64,000 nucleotides of DNA from Microvenator marinus. GTDB lineage: Bacteria > Myxococcota_A > Bradymonadia > Bradymonadales > Bradymonadaceae. How positions within the stretch are numbered: the stretch's first letter is position 1; each line of letters opens with the position of its first letter. The translations under genes were made by a program, and so were the position numbers. Positions 6,346 through 36,300 of this stretch are shown one piece after another. The stretch is from positions 2,380,001 through 2,444,000 of the forward strand of contig NZ_CP042467.1 in assembly GCF_007993755.1 (NCBI RefSeq), given 5' to 3'. The notes under the pieces were generated by a model. It was not told the DNA's origin. It was given only the letters and a program-made list of their open reading frames with translations, and searched no databases.

Positions 6346-6430
6346 ATGGACCTCCGAAAACTTGAGGGCATCACGATGCGACCTTATAGTGCCCCATGAT
6401 CTTTGGGTATCCAAGAGCGAGTGGAGTTAG

Positions 6431-8821: not shown

Positions 8822-8822
8822 T

Positions 8823-10193: not shown

Positions 10194-10209
10194 CTGAGCT
10201 CACTTCAAA

Positions 10210-12867: not shown

Positions 12868-12905
12868 ATTAAAAGCCTTAACTTTTCCGGGAAACTTCTG
12901 AAAAC

Positions 12906-14045: not shown

Positions 14046-14046
14046 C

Positions 14047-17349: not shown

Positions 17350-18236
17350 GGCTTCTCCACTAATTCAGGGTAACAGGTCTCGAAGGCGCTCTGGTCTTTG
17401 GTGCACTCGGTAACCTCAGCGGACCATCCAGCCAGCATGTAGACAAGGCTCAAGGCGAGTGCCCCAGACAGAATACTTACGCCGTGATTCTTACGCGGAC
17501 GGTGCCGCGTGTCCAGATATGATCGCATAAAAAGCGCTATAACTCCGCCACTTAAGAAACCGCCTATATGAGCTGCATTGTCAAATGGGATGGCATCTAG
17601 GAACCCGATTCCGATCCCGAGAACGATCCAAGGCATCATGCCAGTGGTGAGCGAGCGCGAAACCCGAGGCGGCAGCTCGCGCCTAAACTTCATTCCAAAG
17701 ACGCCGAGCGCCCCTGCCAGGCCGTAGATCGCACCCGAGGCACCTCCGCTCGGGGCATCGGTGAAATAGACGCTCGCGAAAGCACCCACCAAACCCGAGA
17801 GCATATAGATGATGAAGAGGCGCCGGCTTCCATAGGCCTTTTCCAAAAGGCGACCTAGCGCGAACAACCCCCACATATTGAACAAAATATGCGCGAAGTT
17901 CATATGCACGAACATGCTCGACCAAAGCCGCCACCATTCGCCCTCATGGACGTGTGTGCTGACTTTCATGCCAGTGTAGAAGAGCAACTGCAGCGGTGAG
18001 AATCCTGGAAATGCCGGCGCGATGTTCTCAAAGAGGAAGAGCCCAAAGACAAATGCCGCCACAAAAAGCGCGACATTCACCGCCAGGAGCCACCATACCA
18101 AATGGTCTGGGTGGCCGAGCACTCGCGCGAACACGAGCTCCCTGTGGATCGCGTTGAAATAGTCTTTGGGGTCTTGTGCGGTGGACAAAATAGGGCTCGT
18201 CAAAAGCTCATCAGCCGACGAAGGATAAACACACAA
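17346..18236 (-). CDS. Rhomboid-family intramembrane serine protease
   Basis: About 296 residues with six or more membrane helices. The catalytic dyad is visible: Ser in GGASGAIYGLAGALG (the GxSG motif) and His in AAHIGGFLSGG. The helix 1-2 loop carries WWRLWSSMFVHMNFAHILFNMW, which contains the conserved HxxxN-type motif of bacterial rhomboids (written here in parts: WWRLWSSMF, then VHMNFAHILFNMW). Rhomboids cut membrane segments of other proteins. The start is uncertain: the frame opens at TTG 18236, and a GTG near residue 36 is an alternative. It lies 25 bases downstream of the giant surface-protein frame and overlaps the acyl-CoA oxidase gene, so the giant protein or its sorting tail is a plausible substrate (inference). 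Confidence 0.88.
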   Translation of the reverse strand: MCVYPSSADELLTSPILSTAQDPKDYFNAIHRELVFARVLGHPDHLVWWLLAVNVALFVAAFVFGLFLFENIAPAFPGFSPLQLLFYTGMKVSTHVHEGEWWRLWSSMFVHMNFAHILFNMWGLFALGRLLEKAYGSRRLFIIYMLSGLVGAFASVYFTDAPSGGASGAIYGLAGALGVFGMKFRRELPPRVSRSLTTGMMPWIVLGIGIGFLDAIPFDNAAHIGGFLSGGVIALFMRSYLDTRHRPRKNHGVSILSGALALSLVYMLAGWSAEVTECTKDQSAFETCYPELVEKP

Positions 18237-18261: not shown

Positions 18262-21200
18262 TCAGTCTTGGAGGAAATCGGTAACGCAATTGACGTATGT
18301 GGTTCCCGTAATCACGGGCTGCGGGTTCACAGCGTTTTGAATGCAGACTCCGAAAGACTCGACCGTATTGTTTGTGATGGTGGGTGCCACGCCGCTCGTA
18401 CCCGTGACGGAGATACCCACCTGTTGACCTACCGCTGCGTCCACCGCACGGATGGTATTGTTTAACGCTGAGATCACACCAGGGGAGTCAATTCTGAGGG
18501 TCGTGTATTGCGTAAAGCTAGCAAAATCGAATTCCAAGGTAGAGTTCTGAACCGTGCCGAACGAATTCTCGAAGAAGGAAATTCTCATGTTGCGCAAGCT
18601 CACACCATCTGCGGCGAGTTGGGTGGTATCCCGCATATAGAAGTTCCTGAAAGTCCCGGAGGAATTTCTAAACGCGGTGCCTGGTACGAGGGTGGCACTC
18701 ACAGTATTTCGGAAGTCAAAATCGCCCGTAGCCAGCCACTCGGTTTGGTGGTCTGACTCGAAGAAATCGAAGACATAGGTGCCACTAGAGATGAAACCAG
18801 GACGAAGATAGAAGCCCTGGCCTAGCTCCGAGTTCCAATTGTTGTTGGTCGTCGTGAACGTATGACCGTCGAGAAACGCCTGGAACGCAAAGTTTCCGGC
18901 GATATCGCCGCTCTGAATCTGGATATCCAGGTTTCGATAATCGAGGCTTAGCCCGGTTTCATTGGTCTCGGTCCAGATCACCGTGGAGGTCAGCGCGGGA
19001 TCGTTGTCGATGATGGTGACGCCGTCAAAGATAAGATCGGCATTACGCCTCATATCGGTAAATCGCGTGTAGTTTTCCCAGACGCCACCGGTGATTGTCG
19101 CCGCGGCGAGACGCTCCATCAGCACGCCATAGCTCAGGTCGCTTCCATCGAGGTTCGTCACTGTTGAAAGTGAGTTGTCGCCCCAGAGATGCAGCCCCCC
19201 GATATTGCGAGCGCTATTCCCGATCATGGTTGAGTTTTGCAGCGTGAGCGTGGAGTTGTGTCCGATCGAAACGTAGTTTCGTCCGACGGCGTCCGCTGAG
19301 ACCTGGAACGTCGCGCCATCAATAGTTGCACCTCCGCCATTAATCGGCGCAACGGTAATATTCTCAAGCAGAGTGCCCGTCTCAATCACGACGCTCGCGT
19401 TTGTTGTGGTGGGACGAACGAGGCGCACCTGGGTCGGCTCGCCCCTTAAAGTCACTCCGGACGCAATGGTGAGCTCGGAGCCGGCTGCGACCTCAATATC
19501 TCGGTCGTAGAGCGTGAAGGTGGACTGCCCTCCCAAAGGCGCAATGATCGCGGTGGCCGCATTGAGCGGCCCTCGGATCACAACGCCCCTTCCCTGCTCG
19601 CCGTTTGTATAAGTGAGGTTTGAGACGGTAGATGGAGTGGCATCAAAGTCGTTCGGCGTCAGAGCGAGTGGAATATCTTCCGGGCCAAACGTGAAAGAAG
19701 CGCTCAAGAGATTTAAGTGCGAGTTCGCTCCGGCATCCAACATGATGATGCCGTAAACGACCCGCTCAGACTTATCATCCACAAAGGAGTTGCCGCTTAG
19801 AGGGTCGAGTTTGGCGTCTTGCTGAGCCACGATACCCGCGTTGGAATCCTCAAAAAGAGACCCACTTATGCTCAGGGTTGCCGTGTTGGTCGCGTGTGCA
19901 CCCCACTCCAAACTACGGAATGTGGAATTCGCCACCGTGACGGTTGAGCTACCTTGTGCCGAGACCCCTCGGTGCAGCCTTTGATTGGGGTTCGAGAGCT
20001 CAGCAAGCGACTCAAAACTCGACCCTGTGATGCTGACCACCGCACTATTTGTAGCCGTGACCAGAGCGTCGTTCTGAGTGATGCGATTCACACTCATGAC
20101 CACGTTTTCGAGCGAGCCCTGGTTTCGGATCACCATCCTCAGACCTTCAAAGACAGTTGAACTGGCATCGAGAAGCGCCCCTGAGGTTGCCTCGATGTAC
20201 CAATTGACGTCCGGGCGAGTTGAGATGATGGAGGTGTTGGGAACAAAGGTGATCGAACCGCCGAGTTGCCGAATGTTCCCGGATACGTAGATATCTGTAG
20301 CTCCCGGCAGTCGAGCGGGGTCAATCGTATTGTCCGAACCATTGCCAGTCCCGTCCAAGAGCCATTGGCGCTCAAGGGTAAGCCCGTTGAACGTCGTGCC
20401 CGTGAAGATGGAGCCAGTAGTGGCCGAGAAGTTGTCGGGATTGAGGTAGACACCCGAGTCTAGCGAGGTCCCAGAGATAGCCGTGTTCAAAATGTTTGCG
20501 GTACTTGTTGCCCGGTAATCGTAGAATCTCATGGCGGAGCCTACGTGGCCGGCGTCCGTGAGGTCGATGGTGTTTGCGTCGGCCTCAATGCTTGCAAACC
20601 TCCAAACGTCGAGCCCTAAATCAGCGTCAAACACTTCGTTGCCGTAGACCTCTGCACTTCCATCCACACGAATGGCCGTCGAGGTGTACTCGAACCGATT
20701 GTCCACGAGCATGACGTTTGGCCCAACAACCCTGACCCCATCTTGAACACGTGGCACCAAGTTTCGACCCACAAAATAGTTATCCGCAACCCAGCCGCCG
20801 TTGGCGATATCCAAAAGAATTCTGGTGCGGGTATCGGTGCTTTCAAATCGTGTGAACTCAGCAAATACCGAACGGACATCAAACGCGAGATTTGTAACTC
20901 GACCGCTTCGAATCACGACGTCTGCGCTCGTGATCGAAAGCAAAGAGCGGGTCCCGTCGTCGCTGCCTACAAGGGTTGTGCCTTCGAACCAGGTCTTTGA
21001 GCCTGGCTCAAGCCGATATCCAAGCCCCTCGAGCTGCGCAGCTCCGACATCAAAGGTCTGACCGATCGCGATTTGAAGCCGGTTTCCGTTGCTGAGCGGC
21101 GAGCGAACGCGAGCCCCATCGTCAACCCTCAAGTACCCGGTGGACACGATATCTCCGTCCACCACATATTCACCTTGCGGAAGGAGGACGTTGGTCAGGG

Positions 21201-24200
21201 TTCCCATCAAGACCACGGGCGCGTCTGGGTCGGCGGAGGGGGTTGCGCGGCACAAGACGAGGCCCTCGTAACAAACTTCGTTACCGGTGGCGCTAGCGCC
21301 CACGGCGCAGGTTTGCGCGGGGTCTGTGCCCTCGTCAATCTCACCATCACAATCGTCATCGAGACCGTTGCAGACCTCAGCGCTGGTGTTCTGTGGGTCG
21401 CACGTTGCTGGCGCGGGCTCGCACCGATGAGTGGACGACGCACAAATCTCACCTGCGGCACAGGTGGTTGGATCGCCAAGTCGGCACCCGGAAGCGCACC
21501 TCCCAAAGCCGTCACAATATTCGCCGGTAGCGCATTCCGTGTCGGCCGCACATTCGGGCGGCGTGGGCTCGCAAGTGCGACCAGCCGAGCACTCAAAACG
21601 AGGCGGGCAGTTATCCGGCGCCTGCCGGCAGCCCGCTTCACAATAGCCTGAGGCACTGCAGAACGAATCAAACGCGCATTCAGCGTCCGTGGTGCAATCA
21701 AGACTTCGGGCTTCGCATCGCCGCAAGCTAGGGCTGCAAAGTGCGCCGGATCCACAGCTATCGGGGCTCGTGCGGCACCCGACTCTGCAGAAACCATTCG
21801 GATCGCAGTACTCGTCAGCCAAACACGCCGTGTTATCCGTGCACTCGGTCGGAACCACGATACATCCGCCTTGGATGGTGTCGCAGATTTGCCCGCCGGG
21901 GCATGGAGTGGCCGGATCGCGACAATCATCGGTCTCAAAAAAGACCTGGATATCGCGCAGTACGGGCTTGTTCTGAGCATTCGTGGACGTGAGCTCGAAC
22001 TCCATCTCCAGGTATCTCAAGTCGGGAGGCAATAAGTTGAAGAGGTCCACAGGCGAGCTCGGGTAGTAGACTGTCCAGGGCTCCTGCTCGAGTTGGGTAC
22101 GGTCCGCACTAGCGCGCACACGCACCTCGACATTAGCGCCAGCTGGCTCAAATGCAGTCCAGGTCAGGGCACGGAATCGCACCTCTTGTCCCGCATCGAA
22201 GATATGCCGCCATGTCCCTTCATTCGCCGTATAGTTCAGGAGCTGAAAGCCGGTGTTATCGCTGTACGAATAAGGACTTACACCCTGAGACGGGTTGTCG
22301 TAGCGGACGATGCTATAGCTCCCGAGCGCAAGTCCGTCCGGTCGCATCTTGATAAGACCGCTGGAGCCGCGTGCGATTCCCCAGAGATTTCCGTCGCTAT
22401 CAATGGTGACGCCGCGGGCGGTACTTTGGTCCATGAGTCCCGTGGCGGCATTTCTAATTGAGAAAATCTCCCACTCTTGAGTACTTGGGCGGAACTTCCC
22501 GATCGAGCTCGAGTTGTAGCCCGCGGCGTAGACCGAGCCATCGAGACCTACAACCATACCGGTGGTCAGGCTGAACGGCTGGGCTCCTGGGTAGATATGA
22601 CGCGTCCACGTACTCGTGTCCGGGTCGAGGTGCCAGATTCCATTCGAGTAATCGGCAAACCAGACGTCATCGTTACCATCCACGGCAAGGCCGTAGCGCG
22701 TGCCGCTCGGCCCACAATGTGTCTGGGTGACAGTGGCCGTTTGAGTGTCCACTTCGACCGAGCAATTGCTTGTAAAACCGCTTGTGAAGAGGCGCCCCTG
22801 GCTGTCGATGACCACGCCGTAGACCGCTTGATTGACCGGGACGACGTTGAGTACGTTGCAATCCGTGTCCACCTGAACAACCTCGCGGGCTTGCCACGTC
22901 CCGAACCACGCGTGATTATCGGAATCCACAGCCACACCGCGGACAAGGTCGGTGGAGCTTCCTAGACGAACCTGACATTTCAGACACTCATCAGCAAAGA
23001 CATCGTCCGGTCCGTTCACGACTTCACCGCCGGTAATCCGTCCATCACCGTTCAAATCGCGTGAGGTCTGAATGACGCCGTCATTGTTACGATCGATGCA
23101 ATCCGCCGGATTCGCGATGATGTAGGAGGCGAGCCCATCTCCACGGTGGGCGACCCACGCGTTACCCACCAAATCCACGGATGTCCTCGAAGGGTCATTG
23201 CCGATCCACATTCGAGCCTCTTCGCGGCCGGTTCGGGTATTCCATCGAGACGCGGTGTTTTCGGCGCTATTCGGAACCCAGATAGAGTTTCGGCTCACAG
23301 AACCTTGACCGAGCGTCACACCACCGTCTGGAGCCGGGGCTACCGTGGGATCTGAGAACCCGCTTTCACCTGGGAAAATCTGTGATTCTCCGCACGGTCC
23401 GCACGTTCCACATCGGTTGAGGGCGCCTTCGTCCACGTCTCCGTCACAGTCGTCATCCACACCATTGCAAATCTCGCGCGGCGCGCTGCCACACGTCCCG
23501 CACGAATTCAGAAGGGTCTCGTCGGTCTGGCCATCACAATCATTATCGATGTCGTCGCAGACTTCTTCGGCTGGAAGAATCTGGTTTTCGCAACCGCTCC
23601 ATTCACCAGCCACACAGGTTTGTGCTCCGGCACGGCACATGCCAACATTTTGCGTATTTTGCGGACCTTCGTAGCACGGTCGAGTTTGGCCTTCTACACA
23701 GGTATCCTCACCACAAGCGCCTTCGTCGATGACGCCGTCACAATCGTCATCGAGGCCGTTACAAGCCTCTACGGGTGGCGCTCCGCAAGTTCCGCAGGCA
23801 TTGAGCACACCATCGTCAACGATTCCATCGCAGTTGTCGTCTAGTCCGTTGCATGTCTCAGATGGCGTTGGTCCGCACGTGCCGCAGGCGTTCAAGAGCT
23901 CTTCATCCACGTCGCCGTCGCAATCGTCGTCGATGCCGTTGCAGGATTCCGTAACGCCTGGGTTTTGCTCAGCATTTTGGTCATTGCAGTCGGGACCAAG
24001 GCAGGCTCGGCCTGCGCCATATCCGTCACCGTCTTGGTCTACGCAGATATTGGAGGGCACGCAAGCACTTGCACCACCGGGGAAACGCTCACACGTCCAG
24101 CCCTCGTCGCAAGCGAGCAGGTCACATTCTCGTGTACACACGCTGTACTCTGGCCCTTGAAGACAGATGCCGCTGAGGCAATCGTCGTCTGCCTCACAGA

Positions 24201-24431
24201 CTTCACCGATCGTGCCGTTGCTTCCCTGATCGGGGCTCATATCGGGTTCGGAATCAGGACCAGAGTCCTCATTGACTCCTTGGTCTGCCTGGTTGTTGGT
24301 GGTCTGGTCCGGGCTCATGTCCGCCATATCTGGGGTCTGCATATTGTTGCTGGGCGTTGATGTAGTGTCATCTCCGCAACCCACCATGAAGGCCAAGACC
24401 ACACACGGAATCAACTTCTTGAGGCGCTCAC
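18262..24431 (-). other. Second half of the giant frame: lipoprotein-like surface protein
   Basis: Approximate residues of the giant frame. 3093-3105: hydrophobic signal with MVGC lipobox. 3106-3170: Asp/Asn/Pro linker (PDMADMSPDQ). 3204-3431: MopE-like repeats, five CNGxDDDCDG-type units separated by ACGTCG. 3454-3788: NHL/streptogramin-lyase-like propeller (HAWFGTWQ, VWFADYSNG, NLWGIARG). 3788-3917: a beta domain (LRYLEMEFELTS). 3921-4091: Cys-rich units of about 40 residues (ADEYCDPNGFCRVGC, DSFCSASGYCEAGC, TGEYCDGFGRCASGC). 4101-4131: one more CNGLDDDCDGEIDEG. 4164-5142: parallel beta-helix repeats (GTTFNGLTLE, SISGSLFEDSNAGI, NNTVESFG). A ribosome site AGGAAG (24439-24444) and a GTG (24431-24429) lie at its front, one base out of frame. 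Confidence 0.65.
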
Positions 24432-27400
24432 GGATTTTCTTCCTACGAGGACGGAGCCCTTGTAGACAGATGAGCAAAAGGAGCAGCGCGCCTGGCTCTG
24501 GACCCGACCCCGACGAGGCGCACCCGCAGCCATCGTCCACCCCATCAGGCCTGTCGATCCCCGAGTTGGTCTCATTGTTGGTCCCAGGCTGATTGTTGGT
24601 CCCAGGCTGATTATTGGTCCCGGGCGGGTTGTTGTCCGGATTTGGGTTATTCGTCCCAGGCGTCTCTTCCTCAGCTTCTACGAGCCTCAAGACCCCAAAG
24701 TCTTGGACTTCAAACGGCTCGTTTACACCCTCGGCCCACATCCAAAGCTGGCGAGGACTCTGAGGTTCAATTGCGTCTCGCATCGTGGCGATGAGCCCGA
24801 ACTCTTTGCCGAGCTCAAGCCCGTCCACTTCTTCGGAGTCGAGCGTCCAACGGAGCACTGATGTTGCGCCCTCAATCCGGAATCCGATCTCACCAATATC
24901 GGCAAACTCGCTATCTGGAGTCCGTTCCACACGGCCAAGCACCTCACCATCTGAAGCCAAGATAAGCTGCAGCGCGTCTCCAGCCTCCTCGGAGTTATCT
25001 TCGACCACAAGCTCGATCACGAGCTGGCGAATACTCCAAGACGCTCTCACGAGGCCGCCGATCAAGGGACCACCGGAAACATATCCAAGCGGTTGGAATT
25101 CAAGCCGGCTTGTCGGACCAACCAAATGCTCAAGCTCTTCGACCTCAGGCGCCAAGAGCTCAAGGTCTCGCCAAAGCGTAACGGCGGCTTGAGCCAAGAG
25201 CGCCCCGTCTGCTCGCATCTCCAAGAGGTACATACCCGGCGGCAGGCCGATGGTCTCAACGGCCAGAGTGCCGCTTTCGGTGGACTGTGCAGCCACATCG
25301 ACCGCGCCTTCATAGAAGGGCTGCGCCAGTCCACGAGCCTGAATGGTGACCTCGGCCGACTCATCAATCTCGCCCGGATTCGCAAGCTCCCACTCAAGAT
25401 TAATTGCATCTTCCACACGTACACGAGGCTCGACCACCTCTAGAACGCCGGTCAGCCTCGTGCCGATCATAAAGGAATCTTGGTCTGTCAAAAGCCTTGT
25501 GTTGCCTGCAGATACGGTTGAGACCACCTCACAGCGTCCCTTCACGTCTCCTTGCAAGGTCCAGAGAAGAAGCTCAGTTTGTGCGGAAGCTGGCTGCACG
25601 GGGTCGAACACAAAATCGGCCTCGAACTCCGGTGGCGCAACCTCGTTGCACTCCACATAGGTCCTGACGCTCAGCGCCCCAAGGCCCTGAAGTGCACTCA
25701 AATTGGTCACGCGGTGCGAAATGCCCACAATATCTCTCGATGCGTAGACAGCTTGGGTTGCGGACACATCAAAGAGAAGCGCATTCGCCGCCACCGTGTC
25801 CGATGTCAGCGGATTGCAGTCATCGTCCACAAAATTCCCCGGAATCTCGGGACTAGCCGGATTGACCAAAGGATCTTGGTCATCACAATCTTGAAGCGTG
25901 CAGAAGCCATCCTGGTCTTCGTCGGCATCACAAACCACCTGCGCTGGCTCCACGTCTACGACCCAGCTCTGTACGGCTGAAGCTCCGCCCTCGTCCTCGA
26001 CGGCAATCACGAACGACGCCTGCCCCTGCCCTTGAGGAGTCCAACGCACGAGACCATTCGCGCCGACGTTAGCACCCGCGGGACCACTCACCAGACCAAA
26101 TCTCAGGGACGTGCCCTCAGGGTCTGTGGCTTGGGCTTGATATTCATAAACGTTGCCAACGCCAGCATCTGTGAGGGGAATCGAGATAATCTCGGGCGGG
26201 AGGTTCACGCAGTTCGAAGAGATCAGTCCTTGGGGACCTTCACTGAACTCCAGCAGCTCACCGCTCGCGTCCACGAGCCTCAAGATCCAGGAACGCCCTT
26301 CCCCTTCAACTACCTGGCTGGAACCGCTGAGCCCCACGTCCTCAAAGGCTCCAGGCTCAAGGTCTTGGGACAATTCCACCTGGCCAAGAACGTTGGTTCC
26401 ACCAGCGTGAATCTCTACGAGTTCCACTCTTGTGTAGCGCGAAAGATCGGCACTTCCGGCACTTCCAATGCGTGCGCTTGCGGAAACCGCAGTGGAGCAC
26501 GAGTCAGTGTCAAAATTCACCCTATCTAAAACAGCTTTAGCCGCTTTGGGTTCGGACCCAAACGCCCTCAGGAATTCGCCCTGATCAAAGTAGCGATCGC
26601 CACCGCCAAAGAGCTGCACCATGACCGGAGAAGACGCCAAAATCTCAACGACCTGAGAGTCTGGAAGAATGAGCTTAGAGAAGGGCTCGAGCGCGCTCGA
26701 AACCGCATCAACACTCACGCTCACGCTTCGTGGACCGTTTAGAATCACGCTATCGCCGCCATCGTTTTGGAGCGTTGGGATCACAAAATACTGCCCTAGC
26801 CTTCCTGCGGTTTGCGTGATGTCCTCCCCCATAAAGTCTACAGACGACGCACCCGCTCTGGACATGTCGCCGGCGAGCAAAGACACGGGTCCTGTGGCGC
26901 TGAGGTGGAGGCCGTTGAGATTGCCGAAACCGGTCTGGAAGAAGATTTCTCCGGCATTTATCGTGCCGGAGACGAGCTGGCTCGAATCTTCACGACGAAT
27001 GGAGAAATCCACGTCGTCGTAGGCCATAATCGCCACCGAACCGCCATTGGGGCCTCGCGCACGTATATTGAATCTGAACTCGGTGCCCACATCGCCCGCG
27101 GCAGCAAGCTCCCGCGCAGCGGGTGGTACAGCAGACATTCCCGTGACTGACGCCGAGTGCACCACCACGTCTGCCGTGGACACGAGCTTGTAGATGGTCT
27201 CCTGGTTCAGTCCTTGAGGCTCCCATGCCTGCCCCTTGAGCAGTCCGAGCATTCCCAACGAAGTCCCGAACTCGTCTTCGAGCTGAACCGCCGTATCCTC
27301 AAGGGCCACGACGATGACGCGGTTGTTCACGGTCAGGGTCGGGGTCCAGATCAGGAATTCTCGGCCGACTCGGTTTCCTTCGACATCCTGGTGGTAGAAA

Positions 27401-30400
27401 TCACCGCCAAAATCATCCACGAAGATTTCGTGATTTAGATACGCCTGAACTGGCCCAGAAGTCTGAATCACAAATGCGTCCAAGAGTGGCTCGAACACAC
27501 CATTAACCTCACTTCCCACATCCACCAGAGTCGGCACTTCCGCTTGAAGCTCGCCCGAATCGAGCACCACGCCTGTGGCGGCATCAATGACTTGGAACTG
27601 GGTGGCGCGCGAGGCAAGGAGAGTCAATTCGGATGGCTGGTCCTGCACGCCAACGTAGGTATTGACCAGCGGGACGTCGATCTCGGTGCTAAACCGGGTG
27701 TTGTTGGTTTCGTCGGATTCGGTCACAAGATCTTGGGGGTCGACCATGGCAAAGACCACATTGCCATCAAAGGCCACCGCCGCATTCACGCTGAAGATCA
27801 GGGTCTGCGATTCACCCGGCGCGAGCCCGGAAACGGACTCGAGTCCAAAGAGCGTATCTTGCGCTCCAAGCTCCTCAAAGAGCTCCACTTCTGTTGGCCC
27901 AGCGGTCGAATCACCAATATTGGTCACCACGACGCCTACGCTCCCGCTAATTTGTCCCTGACTCCAATTCGCCTGAGTCATATCAAAACCGCTAACCACA
28001 AGGTCCGGTCCAAGGGCTTGTGCGCGCACATCGACCAAGAAGCGATGAGGGGTCTCGGCGCCAGTACTGTCTTTGGCCACTATCTCCACCCAATGCTGCC
28101 CGGCATCTCCAGCCGTTGGGGTCCACGTAAGGGTCGCCTCGTCTCCACTTGGGCTGAAGGTCATCCCGGCCGGCAATGCGCCAGCCTCCCAGACCACCGT
28201 ATCGCCTAAGTCTTGGTCCTGGGCGCGAGCTACGTAAGTCCATAGTTCGCCGGCAACAAGGCGTCGATGCGGACGCGTGAGCACTTCTGGAGCCGTGTTC
28301 TGCAACGAAACGGGTGATACGTTCAGCGTCCAAGTCTGAGTGGCTGATGCACCCCACCTGTCCGACGCCACAAGCAGGACCTCGAACTCGCCCGCACGAA
28401 GCGGCTTTCCGACAAGTTCACCGTTCAGGAACTTAAGGCCCGGCGGGCGAACCAAGGCATCCACAAACACCGTGTCACCGTCAGCGTCAAAGACCTGTGG
28501 CGAGTAGTTAAAATCAGCTCCTACGCTCGCGGACGTGGGAGCAGAAGAGGTGAACACAGGGGCCGTATTGGTTGATGGCGGCGCGTTTGCTGGCTGAACG
28601 CCAAGGGTCACCACCGCACGATTATCCGTCTCATCCAACTCGCGAACCACATCTTCGGAGTCCGCCTCGAGGGTCAACACGTAGGTCCCAAGATAGGCGG
28701 TGGTGTCTAAATCGATCGAAAGAGGGAACGACTCACCGGCCCCGAGCTCAGGAATAGCAACGGTTTGAAGCACCGTCTCAGCGTCGAGCCCTCGGCGAAT
28801 CTTGAGTTGGGCTTGAGTCGCTGGAATCTCGGCGTTCGACGTGTTGACGATCGATCCCGACAAGGTTGCAGGCACGCCATTGATGGCAGGTGATGCGTTT
28901 AAGGTCGCACCTAGATTCGGGAGCGCCGTGAACTCGGAGAGCGAGTTCCCGAGCGCCGAAACCGCCTCGAGGCCGGCGCACCCATCGGCGGCAAGCGCTG
29001 CTAGGGCGGCATCTACCTCAGCTTCGAGCTCGCTCAGGCTACGCTGTGCCGCGAGGTTCTTAAGAGCATTGAGCGAGGCAACGAGCCCGTCAACTCGGGC
29101 CGGGTCGCAGCCCTCGAGCGCCTGATCTTGCGAAAGCCCGACACCCAACGTGGCAACCGCAAGCCCTCGGTCCTCGGCGGCAATAAGGTCAAAGTAGGAC
29201 CCCAAAATCCCTTCCATCTCGGGCGCACTCTGCACCAAAACCATCTGAGCTTGCGGTCCCGAAAGGCCACGCTCGGCCTCAAAATCCGTGGGCGCGACCT
29301 CAAAAATCACGTTATGAAAGAGAGGCAAAGTCGTCTGTCCAAGTGCCCCGGCCTGAAAGGTAATCGGCACAGAGATGGTTTGCCCGGGTGCAACTTGAGC
29401 TCCAGGCACCGAAACCTGTGTGAAGATTTCGGGCTTTGAATCCACGAGTAGGACCGGAGCGCGTGCCGCATTGCCCGTGTTGGTGAGCGCCACCTCTACC
29501 GCCACGCTTTGGCCCGGATTTACGAATCGCTGACGTTCCTGAAGCTCAACTTTCCAGCCTCGAACATCCGGAACCACATAGGTCCAATCAAAGTCGTGTG
29601 ATTGTGCGCCTTCGGCAGCAAATGTCACCTGCACGGCCTCTTGTGCCGCCGGCCACACCCCGACGGGCTTCATCTGGAAGCCGATATAGACGGTTTCTCC
29701 CGGCTCGATGCGTACCTCTTGACCGGCGAGGTCGGCACGCATGCTTGGATTCGAGGTCTGAGCGTTAAGCGTGTACGTTTGTGGCTGAGGTCCAAAATGC
29801 GTCAACTCCAGGAGACGCGCGGTCTCGCGAGCCCCGTCAGTATCCACAGAGTGACGCAAATCCTCGATGACTCGCATGGTCAAAGTTTCCGAGGTTGGCG
29901 GCTCAAACGTGTAGACCACCCACTCGGAAGCCTCGAGCCCTTCGGAGCCTCGCGCTGAAACAGCCACCAATTTGGGACCAGACTCAGCGCCCTTTGCGGC
30001 CTTGATTCTAAGGTTCGTTCCGCTCCACGAAAGCTCCACATCCTGAGGGCCCTGAGCGCTGAGCTGCCAGTCGCCGGCGAGCGAGGTCTGAAGGTTCACT
30101 GAGACGTCTACGGGCAAGTAGGTGGGGCCCGCAGGCTCGGAAACCGTAAGCTGCGCCTGATGCGCATTCGTAAGGTTGATCTCCACGCTATCAGCGCTCG
30201 CCCCGGCCACGACCTTGATGCTTCCGCTCGCCCCAGCGAGCGAGAGTCCGTTGGTCACGGTGACCGTGTTTTGACCTACCTGAACTTGGCCGGAAGCCTC
30301 TTGCAGCCTCAGGCCTGCGTCGGTCAACGCGTAGGTGGTTTCCGCAGCCCCGAGCGCGCCGATAGCGAGCGTGTTGGCGCTCAGAGCACCCTCGGCTACG

Positions 30401-33400
30401 AAAAGCCCCGTCTCAAATTGGTCGGTCCCAAAGCCGAGTCTTCCCGAACGCACATTCTCAAGAATGGCCCCTTCAGCCTGCGACCACGAAAAGCTGGCGC
30501 CGTTTCCTGCCGCCCAGACGAGCTCGGTATCCTTGAGGGTCGCGTCACCAAATGCGATCAAGCCAACCGGCTCTTGGATCGCACCATGATAATGTGCGGC
30601 ACGCAGTGTGCCAGAAAAAGCGGTCTCAGCGGAGGTCACCGACATCGTGTTTTGACTTCCAACCCACTCCAAATCTTGGCTTCCCGCACTTGTTCCGTCT
30701 TGCGTCAGTGAAACACTTGAACCAGCCAGTCGATTCACCAATGCTGCCTGAGGTTGAGTGCTTGAGTAGACCACATTTCCGGTTCCAAATACCGTGGTCG
30801 TGTTGGCATTTAACGTGCCGGACACATCCACTCTTGGCAGCGTTGCCAGAGCGCTGATTGTGGTAGTCGCCGCGAATCTATCGCGCGCATCACCACCCAC
30901 GGGAGCCATAACGCCTACGGGCCGAGGTGCGAGCACCGGGTCGGCGAGCACCCCGTTGAGAGTATCTTGGACCTCCGACCATCCCTTGATGAAGGCGCAA
31001 GCACCAGTGATCATGCCCTCAAACGGCAAAAGCGTGAACGCATCTCCAACCACTTCACCAATACCCCAGCCTGCTATACCCACGACGGGTGACGAACACT
31101 CGTCGAGGGACCCACCAAAATTGAACGACTGAATCATCGTGCTAAGGAGCCCGTCCACCGCGCTTGACCAAGCGGGTGAGGCCAGCTTTTGGCAAACGCC
31201 AGTGAATCCAGCAGCACAGGTTCCGGCTGCGGCTACACCGAAGTTAATGAGGCTATAGGAGTATCCAAGGAAGCCCAAAATCCCTTGAATCATCGAGTCA
31301 CGCGAAGGCCCGCAAGGAATGATTGCGGAGCACACGATAGATTGAAGAAGGGTGGCGTAAGAGAGGAGCGCGCCACCAGCACCGGTGTCGATTCGACCAA
31401 GCAATGCGCCGTCCTCGCCCACTTCGAACCAGGCCGAACGAGGCTCGGAGTTCACCATAATCGGCCCGAGTGGAGCCACGATCGCATCTCCTCGCAAAAG
31501 CGCCTGTCGCATGCGAATTCGCGCCTCCGCCGAGACCCCAAAATCAGGCGAGTCCACCACCGCAAGGCCCACAGCACCTGAGAGGTATTCAACGCTGACA
31601 CCTTGAGCCTCTGCCGCACTGAGAATGGTCTCCGCGGATACGAGCCCATTGCTCCCAAAGCCCAACGCCATCACGGCCGTTTCGGCCTCACTGGTGGCCG
31701 CACCATAGGCCATTCGGAACTTGTAAGAATCACCGCTCGCGGCGCCATCCTTCCCGACGGCCTCCATCCGCTCGTGCATCAAGTCGATGCCATAAGTCGC
31801 CTCAAGAGTAGCGGGCTTGATGCGTGCAAAGGCCGACGTGACGCGAGGTTCCACGTTGTAAGGAACCTGTTGCATCGCCTCCGCAATACGGTCGTTTCGC
31901 TCACCCATATTCGAAGAATGAAGGGCCCCCATCGCGCTTGTCAGCGCCTGCGCATAGACCTTGAGTTGCTCAATATCCTCCGAATCCACAGGAGCAAGAG
32001 GGTCGAGCAACTCCTTTGCCTGAGCGTTTGCCTGAGCCTGATCACTGATCGTGTTTAGGACCTGAAGGGCGACTGACGTGGTGCGCGAAGGAAGGTGCGA
32101 AGCCTGCACCAAAAGCGTGGTCATATCCACGGCATCGAGCACCCGTTGCTGAAAGTTGATGTCTAGATTCGCCGCCTCGCCGTTTCGAGCGTTAAATCCC
32201 ACTCGATCAGCAAGACTCTGCACCAGTAGACGCCCCTCTCCCTCGCTCTGGCCGGGCCCAAGAAGCTCGATTCCAACCCATGCGCTAGTCACGAATGTAT
32301 TGGCAATTCCACCACCAAAACTCGAGACCAGCTCCGAATAGGTCTGCCCTTCAATGCGCTCGGATGCTTCCAATCGCTCTAAGTCTCGCACCTCGATCGC
32401 CGGCGTGTAATGCGCCTCAGCCGAATAAAAGACCATCCCAGAGCCTCCCGAGGTCTCTACGGTATGAGAGACGATCACGGGCTTTCCTACGAACTCCGCA
32501 GCACCACGAGTCAACGACAACGAAGGCGTCTTGAACTCGAGCCCTCCGCCAACAAAAGCGGGAGCCATCTCTTCATGGTAAACGCTGATCTTGACGCGAT
32601 GCCTAAAGGCCTCGGGAATCGTATCAAACTCCTGCCCACCTGACCCAAACACATCACCGATTTCAGCATCTTGAAACGACGGATCCAAACTCACCCAGGC
32701 CTCGTTAATCCACGCTTCTACCCACACATGGTCTCCCTGAGCCCATGTCACGACCTCCGGTGGTGCGGAATCCGCCCAGACCAAGTCTTCCAAGTCCTCG
32801 TCGCTCATGGCCAGTATGGACGCGACCCGTTCCGCGCGGCTCTGACCCAACGCAAAAATCTCGAAAGGTGCCAGAAGCGCCAAGGCCACATCTGGAGCGG
32901 CCTTGAGCTCGGCCGCACTCAACGACACACCGGCGCGCGAACCGTTGGAGGCCAAGGCCTCGGCCACCAGTTCTGCCTGACGGTCGGTGTTCAATGTACC
33001 CACCTGATATCGCGCCGGAATTCCCGATGCTTGAAGCAGGGCGAGCAGGAGACTTGCGCGGTCTACGCGATTCGCTCGCATGCCGTAAAGGGCGCCTCGT
33101 GCGCCGTGCAGCGAGCCTTCATAGAACTGATGTTCAAGGGATGCTGCGAATGCCAGAATCCGGGCCACGTCGCCTCCCAGAACTCCTGCCTGATGCAAAA
33201 TCGCCGGGTCGTTGGGATCCGCATCGGGACCACCCACAAGATTTTGTGCTGGGAAACCCTCCCCCGCCAAGGACACGGTGCGCCCCGAGACTTCGGTCCG
33301 CACTCCGGCGAGGTTACCCACAAGGCGCGCGCCCTCGAGCACGATCCCCTCCGCCGAGTCCGCAACCAGCGTGAAATCAACAGAATCCCCAGCCGGGAGA

Positions 33401-33690
33401 TCTCCGAGCGGCCAGAAATAGCTAGCCCCGCTCTCAGTTGGTTGAGGATGCGCCCGAAGTATATTCTCGGAGTTGACCACCACAAAAGCGTTCTCGAGTG
33501 TGTTTGGCCCTTGATTCTGCGCCCGGATCCGAACCTCGAGCCCGTCTGGCCCGACATCATCAATCACCCATGCCGATTGCGTGATCTGCAGAGACAAAGA
33601 CTCCGCCTCTGCGATCGAAACGCTCGAAAACACAAACAATACAGCCGCCAACACGGCAGAAACGTGCGAAAATAGGGTGGTTGCCCTCAT
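18262..33690 (-). CDS. Giant multidomain surface protein (5142 codons), probably two fused genes
   Basis: One uninterrupted frame of 15.4 kb. ATG at 33690 follows AGGGGA; residues 1-29 are a type I signal peptide ending around AEAES. The first about 3086 residues form a complete secreted protein that ends in a MYXO-CTERM-like tail: GCGCASSGSG, a Leu-rich helix, then RPRRKK. It is followed immediately by a lipoprotein-type signal (KKLIPCVVLAFMVGC, Cys at about 3105), an Asp/Asn linker, and about 2040 residues of a second surface protein. Such signals belong at the end and the beginning of proteins, so this is either a lost stop, a frameshift, or a true fusion. Domain layouts of the halves are listed separately. 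No enzymatic core with a full catalytic set is visible. Downstream genes: rhomboid, acyl-CoA oxidase. Confidence 0.8.
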   Translation of the reverse strand: MRATTLFSHVSAVLAAVLFVFSSVSIAEAESLSLQITQSAWVIDDVGPDGLEVRIRAQNQGPNTLENAFVVVNSENILRAHPQPTESGASYFWPLGDLPAGDSVDFTLVADSAEGIVLEGARLVGNLAGVRTEVSGRTVSLAGEGFPAQNLVGGPDADPNDPAILHQAGVLGGDVARILAFAASLEHQFYEGSLHGARGALYGMRANRVDRASLLLALLQASGIPARYQVGTLNTDRQAELVAEALASNGSRAGVSLSAAELKAAPDVALALLAPFEIFALGQSRAERVASILAMSDEDLEDLVWADSAPPEVVTWAQGDHVWVEAWINEAWVSLDPSFQDAEIGDVFGSGGQEFDTIPEAFRHRVKISVYHEEMAPAFVGGGLEFKTPSLSLTRGAAEFVGKPVIVSHTVETSGGSGMVFYSAEAHYTPAIEVRDLERLEASERIEGQTYSELVSSFGGGIANTFVTSAWVGIELLGPGQSEGEGRLLVQSLADRVGFNARNGEAANLDINFQQRVLDAVDMTTLLVQASHLPSRTTSVALQVLNTISDQAQANAQAKELLDPLAPVDSEDIEQLKVYAQALTSAMGALHSSNMGERNDRIAEAMQQVPYNVEPRVTSAFARIKPATLEATYGIDLMHERMEAVGKDGAASGDSYKFRMAYGAATSEAETAVMALGFGSNGLVSAETILSAAEAQGVSVEYLSGAVGLAVVDSPDFGVSAEARIRMRQALLRGDAIVAPLGPIMVNSEPRSAWFEVGEDGALLGRIDTGAGGALLSYATLLQSIVCSAIIPCGPSRDSMIQGILGFLGYSYSLINFGVAAAGTCAAGFTGVCQKLASPAWSSAVDGLLSTMIQSFNFGGSLDECSSPVVGIAGWGIGEVVGDAFTLLPFEGMITGACAFIKGWSEVQDTLNGVLADPVLAPRPVGVMAPVGGDARDRFAATTTISALATLPRVDVSGTLNANTTTVFGTGNVVYSSTQPQAALVNRLAGSSVSLTQDGTSAGSQDLEWVGSQNTMSVTSAETAFSGTLRAAHYHGAIQEPVGLIAFGDATLKDTELVWAAGNGASFSWSQAEGAILENVRSGRLGFGTDQFETGLFVAEGALSANTLAIGALGAAETTYALTDAGLRLQEASGQVQVGQNTVTVTNGLSLAGASGSIKVVAGASADSVEINLTNAHQAQLTVSEPAGPTYLPVDVSVNLQTSLAGDWQLSAQGPQDVELSWSGTNLRIKAAKGAESGPKLVAVSARGSEGLEASEWVVYTFEPPTSETLTMRVIEDLRHSVDTDGARETARLLELTHFGPQPQTYTLNAQTSNPSMRADLAGQEVRIEPGETVYIGFQMKPVGVWPAAQEAVQVTFAAEGAQSHDFDWTYVVPDVRGWKVELQERQRFVNPGQSVAVEVALTNTGNAARAPVLLVDSKPEIFTQVSVPGAQVAPGQTISVPITFQAGALGQTTLPLFHNVIFEVAPTDFEAERGLSGPQAQMVLVQSAPEMEGILGSYFDLIAAEDRGLAVATLGVGLSQDQALEGCDPARVDGLVASLNALKNLAAQRSLSELEAEVDAALAALAADGCAGLEAVSALGNSLSEFTALPNLGATLNASPAINGVPATLSGSIVNTSNAEIPATQAQLKIRRGLDAETVLQTVAIPELGAGESFPLSIDLDTTAYLGTYVLTLEADSEDVVRELDETDNRAVVTLGVQPANAPPSTNTAPVFTSSAPTSASVGADFNYSPQVFDADGDTVFVDALVRPPGLKFLNGELVGKPLRAGEFEVLLVASDRWGASATQTWTLNVSPVSLQNTAPEVLTRPHRRLVAGELWTYVARAQDQDLGDTVVWEAGALPAGMTFSPSGDEATLTWTPTAGDAGQHWVEIVAKDSTGAETPHRFLVDVRAQALGPDLVVSGFDMTQANWSQGQISGSVGVVVTNIGDSTAGPTEVELFEELGAQDTLFGLESVSGLAPGESQTLIFSVNAAVAFDGNVVFAMVDPQDLVTESDETNNTRFSTEIDVPLVNTYVGVQDQPSELTLLASRATQFQVIDAATGVVLDSGELQAEVPTLVDVGSEVNGVFEPLLDAFVIQTSGPVQAYLNHEIFVDDFGGDFYHQDVEGNRVGREFLIWTPTLTVNNRVIVVALEDTAVQLEDEFGTSLGMLGLLKGQAWEPQGLNQETIYKLVSTADVVVHSASVTGMSAVPPAARELAAAGDVGTEFRFNIRARGPNGGSVAIMAYDDVDFSIRREDSSQLVSGTINAGEIFFQTGFGNLNGLHLSATGPVSLLAGDMSRAGASSVDFMGEDITQTAGRLGQYFVIPTLQNDGGDSVILNGPRSVSVSVDAVSSALEPFSKLILPDSQVVEILASSPVMVQLFGGGDRYFDQGEFLRAFGSEPKAAKAVLDRVNFDTDSCSTAVSASARIGSAGSADLSRYTRVELVEIHAGGTNVLGQVELSQDLEPGAFEDVGLSGSSQVVEGEGRSWILRLVDASGELLEFSEGPQGLISSNCVNLPPEIISIPLTDAGVGNVYEYQAQATDPEGTSLRFGLVSGPAGANVGANGLVRWTPQGQGQASFVIAVEDEGGASAVQSWVVDVEPAQVVCDADEDQDGFCTLQDCDDQDPLVNPASPEIPGNFVDDDCNPLTSDTVAANALLFDVSATQAVYASRDIVGISHRVTNLSALQGLGALSVRTYVECNEVAPPEFEADFVFDPVQPASAQTELLLWTLQGDVKGRCEVVSTVSAGNTRLLTDQDSFMIGTRLTGVLEVVEPRVRVEDAINLEWELANPGEIDESAEVTIQARGLAQPFYEGAVDVAAQSTESGTLAVETIGLPPGMYLLEMRADGALLAQAAVTLWRDLELLAPEVEELEHLVGPTSRLEFQPLGYVSGGPLIGGLVRASWSIRQLVIELVVEDNSEEAGDALQLILASDGEVLGRVERTPDSEFADIGEIGFRIEGATSVLRWTLDSEEVDGLELGKEFGLIATMRDAIEPQSPRQLWMWAEGVNEPFEVQDFGVLRLVEAEEETPGTNNPNPDNNPPGTNNQPGTNNQPGTNNETNSGIDRPDGVDDGCGCASSGSGPEPGALLLLLICLQGLRPRRKKIRERLKKLIPCVVLAFMVGCGDDTTSTPSNNMQTPDMADMSPDQTTNNQADQGVNEDSGPDSEPDMSPDQGSNGTIGEVCEADDDCLSGICLQGPEYSVCTRECDLLACDEGWTCERFPGGASACVPSNICVDQDGDGYGAGRACLGPDCNDQNAEQNPGVTESCNGIDDDCDGDVDEELLNACGTCGPTPSETCNGLDDNCDGIVDDGVLNACGTCGAPPVEACNGLDDDCDGVIDEGACGEDTCVEGQTRPCYEGPQNTQNVGMCRAGAQTCVAGEWSGCENQILPAEEVCDDIDNDCDGQTDETLLNSCGTCGSAPREICNGVDDDCDGDVDEGALNRCGTCGPCGESQIFPGESGFSDPTVAPAPDGGVTLGQGSVSRNSIWVPNSAENTASRWNTRTGREEARMWIGNDPSRTSVDLVGNAWVAHRGDGLASYIIANPADCIDRNNDGVIQTSRDLNGDGRITGGEVVNGPDDVFADECLKCQVRLGSSTDLVRGVAVDSDNHAWFGTWQAREVVQVDTDCNVLNVVPVNQAVYGVVIDSQGRLFTSGFTSNCSVEVDTQTATVTQTHCGPSGTRYGLAVDGNDDVWFADYSNGIWHLDPDTSTWTRHIYPGAQPFSLTTGMVVGLDGSVYAAGYNSSSIGKFRPSTQEWEIFSIRNAATGLMDQSTARGVTIDSDGNLWGIARGSSGLIKMRPDGLALGSYSIVRYDNPSQGVSPYSYSDNTGFQLLNYTANEGTWRHIFDAGQEVRFRALTWTAFEPAGANVEVRVRASADRTQLEQEPWTVYYPSSPVDLFNLLPPDLRYLEMEFELTSTNAQNKPVLRDIQVFFETDDCRDPATPCPGGQICDTIQGGCIVVPTECTDNTACLADEYCDPNGFCRVGCRTSPDSCGSGALCSPSLRRCEARSLDCTTDAECAFDSFCSASGYCEAGCRQAPDNCPPRFECSAGRTCEPTPPECAADTECATGEYCDGFGRCASGCRLGDPTTCAAGEICASSTHRCEPAPATCDPQNTSAEVCNGLDDDCDGEIDEGTDPAQTCAVGASATGNEVCYEGLVLCRATPSADPDAPVVLMGTLTNVLLPQGEYVVDGDIVSTGYLRVDDGARVRSPLSNGNRLQIAIGQTFDVGAAQLEGLGYRLEPGSKTWFEGTTLVGSDDGTRSLLSITSADVVIRSGRVTNLAFDVRSVFAEFTRFESTDTRTRILLDIANGGWVADNYFVGRNLVPRVQDGVRVVGPNVMLVDNRFEYTSTAIRVDGSAEVYGNEVFDADLGLDVWRFASIEADANTIDLTDAGHVGSAMRFYDYRATSTANILNTAISGTSLDSGVYLNPDNFSATTGSIFTGTTFNGLTLERQWLLDGTGNGSDNTIDPARLPGATDIYVSGNIRQLGGSITFVPNTSIISTRPDVNWYIEATSGALLDASSTVFEGLRMVIRNQGSLENVVMSVNRITQNDALVTATNSAVVSITGSSFESLAELSNPNQRLHRGVSAQGSSTVTVANSTFRSLEWGAHATNTATLSISGSLFEDSNAGIVAQQDAKLDPLSGNSFVDDKSERVVYGIIMLDAGANSHLNLLSASFTFGPEDIPLALTPNDFDATPSTVSNLTYTNGEQGRGVVIRGPLNAATAIIAPLGGQSTFTLYDRDIEVAAGSELTIASGVTLRGEPTQVRLVRPTTTNASVVIETGTLLENITVAPINGGGATIDGATFQVSADAVGRNYVSIGHNSTLTLQNSTMIGNSARNIGGLHLWGDNSLSTVTNLDGSDLSYGVLMERLAAATITGGVWENYTRFTDMRRNADLIFDGVTIIDNDPALTSTVIWTETNETGLSLDYRNLDIQIQSGDIAGNFAFQAFLDGHTFTTTNNNWNSELGQGFYLRPGFISSGTYVFDFFESDHQTEWLATGDFDFRNTVSATLVPGTAFRNSSGTFRNFYMRDTTQLAADGVSLRNMRISFFENSFGTVQNSTLEFDFASFTQYTTLRIDSPGVISALNNTIRAVDAAVGQQVGISVTGTSGVAPTITNNTVESFGVCIQNAVNPQPVITGTTYVNCVTDFLQD
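24433..33690 (-). other. First half of the giant frame: secreted protein with MYXO-CTERM-like tail
   Basis: Approximate residues of the giant frame. 1-29: signal peptide. 205-345: transglutaminase-like domain (RASLLLALLQASGIPARYQV, then HVWVEAWINEAWVSLDP). The Cys expected four residues before the Ala-Ser pair is an Arg, so it is probably inactive. 1594-1697 and 1894-2007: CARDB-type modules ending in ETDN and DETNN. 1704-1790, 1794-1890 and 2495-2582: cadherin/He_PIG-like Ig modules. 2008-2364: a region like the IgGFc-binding/beta-propeller-like adhesin part (QAYLNHEIFVDD, YFVIPTL). 2584-2624: MopE-like metal-binding unit (DEDQDGFCTLQDCDD). About 3014-3050: GTNNQP repeats. About 3055-3086: GCGC, hydrophobic helix, basic end. 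Between about 345 and 1590 I see mostly beta-rich sequence without a recognised family. Confidence 0.7.
24569..24636. repeat. 18-bp repeat coding for GTNNQP linker units
   Basis: About three contiguous 18-base units (core TGGTCCCAGGCTGATTGT) lie just before the MYXO-CTERM-like tail of the first half of the giant frame. The linker is of the same style as those behind the lipobox of several lipoproteins in this window. Confidence 0.75.
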
Positions 33691-33792: not shown

Positions 33793-36261
33793 TCACTCGA
33801 TGAAAATGCGCCGGACGCGCGGCGAGATTTTGCACAAGACTTCGTAGTTAATGGTGGAGCCTCGGTGAGCGATTTCATCCACTGAGATCTCCGCGGAATC
33901 TTGGGTCCCAAAGATCACGACTTCGTCCCCCACTTCGACGCCTGAAATCTCGGTCACATCCACCATTGAGACGTCCATGCACACATTCCCCACGACCTGA
34001 GCACGCTTGCCTCGAATCAAGACTTCGCCGCCGTTTGACATGAATCTTGAGAAGCCGTCGTTGTAGCCTGCTGCGATAGTCGCAATCCGACGCTTAGATT
34101 CGGCGATATACGTGCGCCCGTAGCTAATGGATTCGCCGGGTTCCACATCCTTGACATGAATCACCTGCGTGGCGAATTTTAGCGCCGGTGAGGTGTCTTT
34201 GGCCCATTCCTCCACGTCGGCACTTGGGTGATAGCCATAGAGCCCGAGCCCCACTCGCACAAGATTGTAGCGCGCAGCTGGCACGCGCCATGCCGCAGCG
34301 GTATTGGCGGCGTGAACCCATTCTGGCTCAATACCTGCGGACCTAAGAGCGACGATGGCCTCATCAAAAAGGGCCAATTGTTTTGTAGTGTATGCGTCAT
34401 CCTGCGCCATATCGGCGCTCGCAAAATGCGTCATAAGCCCCACCAATCTCAGACTTGGCCGCTTTAGGATTTCCTTCGCAAATTCTAGGACATCCTTAGA
34501 CTTGACGCCGAGGCGACCCATCCCGGTGTCTACTTCTACATGAACCTCCACTGCCTTTCCGCGGTACGATGCGTGCCGCTCAAGATCATCCAACACTGGG
34601 ACGGACCCGACGAGCGCCATAAGGTCGTACTTAACGATCTTATCCGCCTCGCCGCCGAGTGTGTTCGTCACCAAAATCGGAAGGTTTAGCCCGCGATTTC
34701 TAAGCGGAATCGCCTCGTCAGCATACGCCACGGCCAGCGCATCAATCCCTTCACGCACCAGAGTTTGTGAGACGCGCGTCGCATCGTTTCCGTAGGCGAA
34801 GCTCTTGACCACGGCCATCAGACGTGTCCCCTGAATGCGCGTTTTTATCGCCTGTACGTTTTGCCGAATGGCCTCCAAATCCACATAGAGTCTGGTCGGC
34901 GCCACACTCTCGAGCAAGCCGCTGGCCACGCGGTCGAGCTCCAGGGCCTGACTTCCTTTGAAGAGCACCACATCACCCGACTCGAGCTCCCCATCCAGAA
35001 ACTCAGAGAGTCTTTCAATAGAATCAAAGGACCGGACGTTGGGGGCCGGCATGCCCGCCTGAACAGCAGAACTACCGATACTCTTTGCCAAGGGTCCAAG
35101 CGTCAAAAGCAGATCTACACCAAACCCCGGAATATCGCGCCCGAGCTCGCGATGAGCGTCCTCGCTGAGGGCACCAAGGTCCAACATATCGCCCAAAATA
35201 GCGATTTTCCGAGCATTGGCCCCGTAAAAGCTTAGGGTAGATAGCGCGGAGCGCGCACTCACGGGGTCAGAACTATAGGCATCGTTGATGAGCGTGACCC
35301 AGTTGCTCGTGGTGTGAATCTCAAGGCGCATGGGTGCGTAGCCAAACGCTGAGAGACCACCAATGATCTCGTCTTTTGTGAGCCCCAGCTCGGATGCCAT
35401 CATGGCTGCGACGAGCGCGTTCATGGCGTTGTGTGCGCCCGCGGCGTTGATGGGCACCTCGAACTCGGAGCCGTCTTGTAGCTTAAGTCTCGCGCGTGCT
35501 GAGATTGGCTGATAGGTGCAAGACGGCTTCGCCCCGAGCTCTGACGCAATCTCCGGGGAAAACCACAGAGTTCTCGGGGAGGTATTATGGGCCTGAACCT
35601 CTGGAGTCTCTGGAGCGACCAACGCACCGCTTAGCCGCTTGAATAATTTGAGCTTCTCTATCGCGGTATTCTCTTTGGTCTTTAGACCTGCGGCATGCGC
35701 CGTGCCGATAGAAGTGAGCACGCCATGCGTTGGGCGAATCATGGCTTCGAGGCGGTCCATTTCACCGTTTTCTGAGATCCCAGCTTCGATAATCGCGACT
35801 TGGTGTCCCTCCCGAAGCCCGAGCACGCTTAGCGCGACGCCGACCTGAGAGTTAAACGACCCCGGGCTTCGCCAAACCGTGAATCGGCGGGCGAGTATGC
35901 TGGAGAGCATCTCTTTGACGATGGTCTTGCCGTTGGAGCCCGTGATGCCAATCACCGGAATCCCAAAGCGCGCGCGCCAGGCGGCAGCGAGGGATTGCAG
36001 GGCGTCGAGAGTGTCTTCTACGCGTATGAAAGGGCCTTTTCGCTCGGGCTCCCAGGTCTTGTTGACTAGACAGACCGCCCCGGCTTCCAGCGCCCGATCT
36101 ACAAAGTCGTGTCCGTCAAACTTCGGGCCCTTGAGCGCAACAAAAAGCGAATGCGGCGCGCTGATTTTTCGGGTATCAACGACAACCTCGTGGAGCGACT
36201 CGGGCAGGTTTGCTTCGCAATCTGGCTCGGTATACTGAAGGACCCAGGACGTGGAGAACAC
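33793..36261 (-). CDS. Bifunctional MurF ligase / alanine racemase
   Basis: About 822 residues from GTG 36261; the frame is open further up to 36444, but that would overlap the divergent tamA start and adds sequence unlike MurF. The N-terminal part is UDP-MurNAc-tripeptide:D-Ala-D-Ala ligase: VVVDTRKI, the ATP loop GITGSNGKT (about residue 109), IIEAGISENGEM and LINDAYSSDPVS. From about residue 468 it is a complete PLP alanine racemase. It has the Schiff-base Lys in MAVVKSFAYGND, VEVDTGMGRLGV, the catalytic Tyr in ISYGRTY, AAGYNDGF and CMDVSMVDVT. It makes D-Ala and joins D-Ala-D-Ala to the peptidoglycan precursor in the cytosol. This fusion is well known in Bacteroidetes. Confidence 0.92.
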   Translation of the reverse strand: MFSTSWVLQYTEPDCEANLPESLHEVVVDTRKISAPHSLFVALKGPKFDGHDFVDRALEAGAVCLVNKTWEPERKGPFIRVEDTLDALQSLAAAWRARFGIPVIGITGSNGKTIVKEMLSSILARRFTVWRSPGSFNSQVGVALSVLGLREGHQVAIIEAGISENGEMDRLEAMIRPTHGVLTSIGTAHAAGLKTKENTAIEKLKLFKRLSGALVAPETPEVQAHNTSPRTLWFSPEIASELGAKPSCTYQPISARARLKLQDGSEFEVPINAAGAHNAMNALVAAMMASELGLTKDEIIGGLSAFGYAPMRLEIHTTSNWVTLINDAYSSDPVSARSALSTLSFYGANARKIAILGDMLDLGALSEDAHRELGRDIPGFGVDLLLTLGPLAKSIGSSAVQAGMPAPNVRSFDSIERLSEFLDGELESGDVVLFKGSQALELDRVASGLLESVAPTRLYVDLEAIRQNVQAIKTRIQGTRLMAVVKSFAYGNDATRVSQTLVREGIDALAVAYADEAIPLRNRGLNLPILVTNTLGGEADKIVKYDLMALVGSVPVLDDLERHASYRGKAVEVHVEVDTGMGRLGVKSKDVLEFAKEILKRPSLRLVGLMTHFASADMAQDDAYTTKQLALFDEAIVALRSAGIEPEWVHAANTAAAWRVPAARYNLVRVGLGLYGYHPSADVEEWAKDTSPALKFATQVIHVKDVEPGESISYGRTYIAESKRRIATIAAGYNDGFSRFMSNGGEVLIRGKRAQVVGNVCMDVSMVDVTEISGVEVGDEVVIFGTQDSAEISVDEIAHRGSTINYEVLCKISPRVRRIFIE

Positions 36262-36300
36262 GGCTTTCTCACTTTGTTTACAAGCGGGCTCTATAGCACG

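Follow-up and report, generated by a model that had tools for sequence, protein, structure and literature searches.

Does a single very long bacterial frame carrying two internal targeting signals represent a real fused gene, or two ordinary genes joined by accident? This question is raised by an open frame of 5142 codons on the minus strand (18262..33690) of a locus in Microvenator marinus, here called the window, i.e., the whole 64,000-nucleotide stretch of DNA that was analyzed. In the interior of this frame, a lipoprotein signal comes directly after a MYXO-CTERM tail. Both signals had been named correctly in an earlier note on this DNA, which favored an indel or a sequencing error joining two genes and allowed, as the exception, that the fusion is truly in frame and contains both targeting signals internally. 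The exception is what was found, and the arrangement proved to be recurrent in the phylum.

Within the frame, a MYXO-CTERM-tagged protein (about 3050 residues) is connected to a lipoprotein-like one (about 2050 residues) by a conserved hairpin, comprising a GC motif, a hydrophobic helix, a basic turn, a second helix, and the lipobox Cys (all features lie on the minus strand). The chain opens with an N-terminal signal peptide (MRATTLFSHVSAVLAAVLFVFSSVSIAEA; 33604..33690, the cleavage site being predicted), the counterpart of which in one ortholog, G009 (see below), is MRRIAISVFLFVFCFTSLAWA. According to domain matches, the upstream mature half (24535..33603) harbors a transglutaminase-like domain (PF01841, E 1e-7; 32680..33120), CARDB and Ig-like domains, and one MopE motif. 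A tandem 18-base unit (a QPGTNN-type linker) is present at 24574-24634, just ahead of the tag. The internal MYXO-CTERM tag, i.e., the GCGC motif and the first hydrophobic helix, occupies 24442..24534 and is followed by the basic turn RPRRKKIRERLKK (24415..24453), predicted to be cytoplasmic and basic in the listed homologous hairpins too, and by the second hydrophobic helix with the lipobox FMVGC (24376..24414; Cys codon 24378-24376). The junction at 24531-24361 reads GCGCASSGSGPEPGALLLLLICLQGLRPRRKKIRERLKKLIPCVVLAFMVGCGDDTT, the tag and the lipobox falling within 50 residues. The downstream half (18262..24378) was delineated by domain matches and by its identity to the G009 ortholog, which amounts to 76% over the first 920 residues; it contains Cys-rich MopE repeats, a Vgb-like region (~22333-22947), and a long C-terminal region.

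In a search of the genome (a single contig of 5.85 Mb), the tag scored 24.4 bits against TIGR03901, the cut-off of which is 20 bits; the score was 21.9-22.8 bits on segments and 18.2 bits within the whole 3090-aa upstream half. Of the 33 matches to this model in the genome (E up to 0.05, each of them read), 32 are terminal, with a stop soon after the arginines, and only the window tag is internal and runs on, with about 2050 more codons after it. Since 32 of the 33 matches are terminal, the match of the window tag is not due to chance. The 32 ordinary tags also point to Myxococcota as the source of the DNA. The lipobox (KKLIPCVVLAFMVGC) displays [GAS]C after a hydrophobic stretch and a basic n-region. 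It is internal in the window gene and in its orthologs alike, where no usable in-frame start accompanies it; in the window, no charged in-frame start was found before the lipobox.

Orthologs were found in three other genera from three families, G009 belonging to the same family and G279 and G071 to other families of the order and class. Each of them is a single frame: 5204 codons with the junction GCGCASASSGPRPGSVFLVFALFGWFATRRRWSKRYIAAALAIFAIACGDDTT in G009, 5188 codons with GCDCSTSGSPASGGAWGWIIMMALIAGVREARRKGAWVWVLAILGATACDD in G279, and 5439 codons with GCDCDAGDGAPDPIGWLAVLALLGWRRRRLALGLLIGLLVGGCDD in G071. In all four orthologs, counting the window gene, the cysteines of the MYXO-CTERM motif and of the lipobox are retained and the tag scores above the TIGR03901 cut-off; the lipoboxes of the other three are AIFAIAC, ILGATAC, and LLVGGC. 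The proteins of G279 and G071 are mostly 22-60% identical to the window protein along the chain, hence the lineages are old. The comparison with orthologs had been proposed in the earlier note as a check, and the uninterrupted frame in all three shows that the fusion is real. Constraint on the hairpin of the window gene is weaker (pN/pS 0.58) than on the gene on average (0.43), the synonymous sites being near saturation.

The same junction was sought elsewhere with profile A4, built from ten hairpins and run against 55 genomes of the class, and with profile A5, built from 27 hairpins and run against 189 genomes of the phylum. Each ORF was read for the presence, within a single open frame, of a MYXO-CTERM-like Cys motif, a helix, a basic turn, a helix, and [GAS]C. 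The junction was recognized in 44 ORFs from 28 of 57 class genomes and in 8 more ORFs outside the class but within the phylum; the profile was built from such sequences, and these counts are no test of chance. The test used instead was the retention of the frame and of both cysteines in orthologs, together with purifying selection through the hairpin. The latter was seen in three close relatives from a second family, in which the pN/pS of the hairpin is 0.19-0.30 vs. 0.16-0.20 for the whole gene. In the 37 class hairpins measured, the first and the last Cys are 41-60 residues apart. When named genomes were first scanned with the N-terminal domain, no match was obtained; a second scan mostly returned Cys-repeat relatives, plus four more hairpins in named GTDB contigs, an independent collection, in ORFs of 1984-2868 codons (weakest E 0.004).

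The upstream halves of these ORFs fall into approximately nine clusters without detectable mutual similarity at the threshold used; in the largest cluster (18-19 members), both halves are co-conserved. A second fused ORF, of 1409 codons, was found in the same genome as the window (G000:C1:2776561; locus L240, G000:C1:2771001-2781500, ORF 3167-7393). It carries an N-terminal lipobox, an internal MYXO-CTERM-like tag (scoring as Synerg-CTERM, 29.6 bits), and a second lipobox, LLGTACSDD, and resembles the family of 18-19 fused members; it had no Pfam match. An ORF of 3056 codons from genome G013, rich in FG-GAP and cadherin-like repeats (L201, G013:C1:4102001-4121000, ORF 5348-14515), displays two successive MYXO-CTERM/lipobox hairpins, which would give three proteins and make it a possible triple polyprotein. 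In three more junctions (L208 and L209 from G013, L237 from G152), an apparent ordinary signal peptide takes the place of the lipobox, which fits the second helix acting as a signal peptide. Collectively, the occurrence of the same junction in dozens of other Myxococcota genes suggests exported polyproteins which are cut apart at the membrane.

Both kinds of protein also exist on their own. Relatives of the downstream half occur alone in other genera, and one occurs in the same genome, with ordinary N-terminal lipoprotein signals, e.g., MNVRRLSRIIAVVGAIAFFAACSSDE and MKKLAIFTALAALTLWGCDSE, and the upstream half has paralogs that finish with a MYXO-CTERM tag and a normal stop. In G279 (contig C329), no more than a few dozen bases lie between the stop of such an upstream paralog and a separate lipoprotein gene. 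Thus, the fused gene joins two kinds of protein which are otherwise made separately, and keeps the processing signals of both. Three other candidates for such split pairs (L004, L210, L211) were rejected: they possess ordinary tags and a stop, with no clear lipoprotein partner right behind.

Judging from sequence, the gene most likely encodes a genuine exported polyprotein, the hairpin of which is probably processed by a myxosortase and by Lgt/LspA, yielding two proteins with separate anchors; we give this reading a probability of roughly 0.7. The N-terminal signal peptide would direct the first half to Sec export, the MYXO-CTERM helix would stop the transfer, leaving the basic turn in the cytoplasm, and the lipobox helix would serve as an internal second signal peptide starting the export of the second half. 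The GCGC motif may then be cut by a CPBP protease of the myxosortase type, and the lipobox may be the site at which Lgt and LspA lipidate and cut the chain. The expected products are two individually anchored envelope proteins in a 1:1 ratio, with the hairpin left as a by-product. A CPBP protease related to MrtX is encoded in the genome; it scores 97 bits against NF040593, the cut-off of which is 180 bits, and covers only model positions 131-238, i.e., half of the model. The cleavage of a terminal MYXO-CTERM tag by MrtX is established in Myxococcus, as well as in E. coli provided with this enzyme; its authors argued that sorting tags function mid-protein too (PMC11980579).

The surroundings of the gene were considered as well. 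A rhomboid protease gene (17346-18236, minus strand; PF01694, E 1e-34) begins some 26 bases beyond the end of the polyprotein gene on the same strand and scores below the cut-offs for GlpG and rhombosortase. As a dedicated processing enzyme it was rejected: no rhomboid gene is adjacent in the G009, G279, or G071 loci, hence its adjacency is no evidence for a processing role. Just upstream of the polyprotein gene, a Mur ligase is fused to an alanine racemase in one 883-codon frame (33793-36444, minus strand). On the plus strand, 36109-41285 carries an Omp85 gene and, behind it, a TamB-like gene that includes a C-terminal OmpA domain.

A fusion which is real could nevertheless be left uncut, with the hairpin anchoring one giant protein in the inner membrane, or in the outer membrane after transport there, lipidated or not. 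This would agree with the unbroken, conserved frame, and the existence of an NCBIfam model for a C-terminal TM-RRRR-lipobox tail, titled 'lipo-invert putative C-terminal anchoring domain', indicates that curators, too, view such hairpins as anchors. Still, we deem it unlikely, since an anchor alone needs neither cleavage motif, whereas the four orthologs, like dozens of unrelated proteins, preserve the cysteines of both the MYXO-CTERM motif and the lipobox, and free-standing relatives are known for both halves. It appears about equally doubtful that just one signal works, e.g., that the chain is split by LspA only, the MYXO-CTERM tag surviving as a relic stop-transfer, or the reverse: the myxosortase candidate of the genome does score under its model cut-off, but the motif of the tag is intact and above the MYXO-CTERM cut-off in the four orthologs, and 32 ordinary tags are present in the same genome.

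Initiation of translation at the junction, yielding a free lipoprotein besides the fused chain, is less probable still. In the window, AGGA stands five bases ahead of an in-frame ATC, and 24414 offers a TTG in the same frame. A charged in-frame start is possible in about 17 of the 37 class hairpins, for which separate initiation is conceivable; yet a usable start of this kind is absent from the other 20, and a start at the window TTG would leave the lipoprotein without its charged n-region. The G009 ortholog possesses before the lipobox neither ATG nor GTG, but a single TTG seven residues ahead of the Cys, and in G071 none of ATG, GTG, and TTG was found there; moreover, a ribosome coming from upstream meets no stop anyway. 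The AGGAAG at 24444-24439 and the GTG seven bases on (24431-24429), one base out of frame, are as the earlier note had described them, but the element (24411..24444, minus strand) is no gene start: from the out-of-frame GTG, the reading is closed after six codons by TGA (24413-24411), and the arrangement is not kept in the G009 ortholog.

It is this arrangement that would speak for two ordinary genes having been merged through an indel or a lost stop in the assembly or strain, an explanation that is hardly credible given that the junction is uninterrupted in three other genera, that G009 lacks the AGGAAG/GTG pair, and that one inserted base would leave an untypical overrun of about 20 residues after the tag. 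With the extra base suggested as a repair at 24413-24428, the upstream frame would continue past RPRRKK with RERxQEVDSVCGLGLHGGLRR before its stop, unlike all 32 terminal tags, hence a single indel does not restore two typical genes. An indel or sequencing error is excluded by the three orthologs with the same open frame, tag, basic turn, and lipobox, and the claim that one of these had joined the two genes has to be abandoned.

Returning to the polyprotein, it seems somewhat better than an even bet that Myxococcota own a general device of this kind, in which the hairpin couples a sorting tag to the next signal peptide and would be cut by myxosortase and signal peptidase, giving two or even three differently anchored proteins at a fixed ratio. 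To our knowledge, cellular polyproteins split by protein-sorting enzymes are rare in bacteria. The back-to-back placement of a sorting tag and a lipoprotein signal makes clear predictions on the topology, on the internal action of myxosortase and LspA, and on the stoichiometric delivery of paired surface proteins. For annotators, it means that such frames are not errors and that predictors of lipoproteins and MYXO-CTERM tags limited to the ends of the chain miss them.

Several known systems bear comparison with this gene. In the literature searched, the coverage of which was partial, an internal MYXO-CTERM tag was known before from one published case, MXAN_5598, and a MYXO-CTERM tag joined to a lipobox was not described; nor did the searched literature on bacterial polyproteins or internal signal peptides contain a precedent for such a junction. 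The NCBIfam model NF058595 ('lipo-invert') shares with the window gene the presence, in a single chain, of a hydrophobic helix, RRRR, and a second helix with a lipobox Cys. Of ten hairpins compared with it, most matched, all below its cut-off of 37 bits; the window junction, at 21.7-23.0 bits, is below the cut-off too, and control genomes match at low score as well; the assignment of the junction to this model was therefore rejected. In addition, the NF058595 hairpin is C-terminal, whereas about 2050 codons follow the junction in the window. Two members of NF058595, L121 (G177:C186) and L122 (G140:C151), lack the MYXO-CTERM GC motif, and their chains extend only about 50 residues beyond the lipobox, compared with about 2050 residues of a separate protein in the window; in both, the hairpin seems to sit inside an Ig-like domain, the last strands of which come after the lipobox.

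With bacterial lipoproteins processed by Lgt/LspA, the gene shares the charged n-region, the hydrophobic stretch, the [GA]C lipobox, and a CGDD start as in free lipoproteins of the class, but its signal lies 3100 residues inside the chain without a usable start codon of its own. The TraA/TraB pair of myxobacteria (PMC11980579) also places the gene of a MYXO-CTERM protein before that of its partner, although as two overlapping ORFs and not as one chain. With the MYXO-CTERM/MrtX system (TIGR03901, NF040593; PMC11980579), the gene has in common the GC motif with Cys, the hydrophobic helix, and the arginine-rich end; the known tags are, however, C-terminal and removed as a short peptide, whereas that of the window is internal, with the lipoprotein signal directly after it. 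The closest parallel in fusion type, i.e., an internal MYXO-CTERM followed in frame by a second exported protein, is MXAN_5598 of Myxococcus xanthus, presented as a rare case, where the tag precedes an outer-membrane barrel and OmpA domains; gene fusion is thought to be the origin of its internal tag, and the N-terminal part was proposed to be still processed (PMC11980579). Compared by description, both genes carry an internal tag, but the second part of the window gene begins with a lipobox, and its junction is conserved and recurrent.
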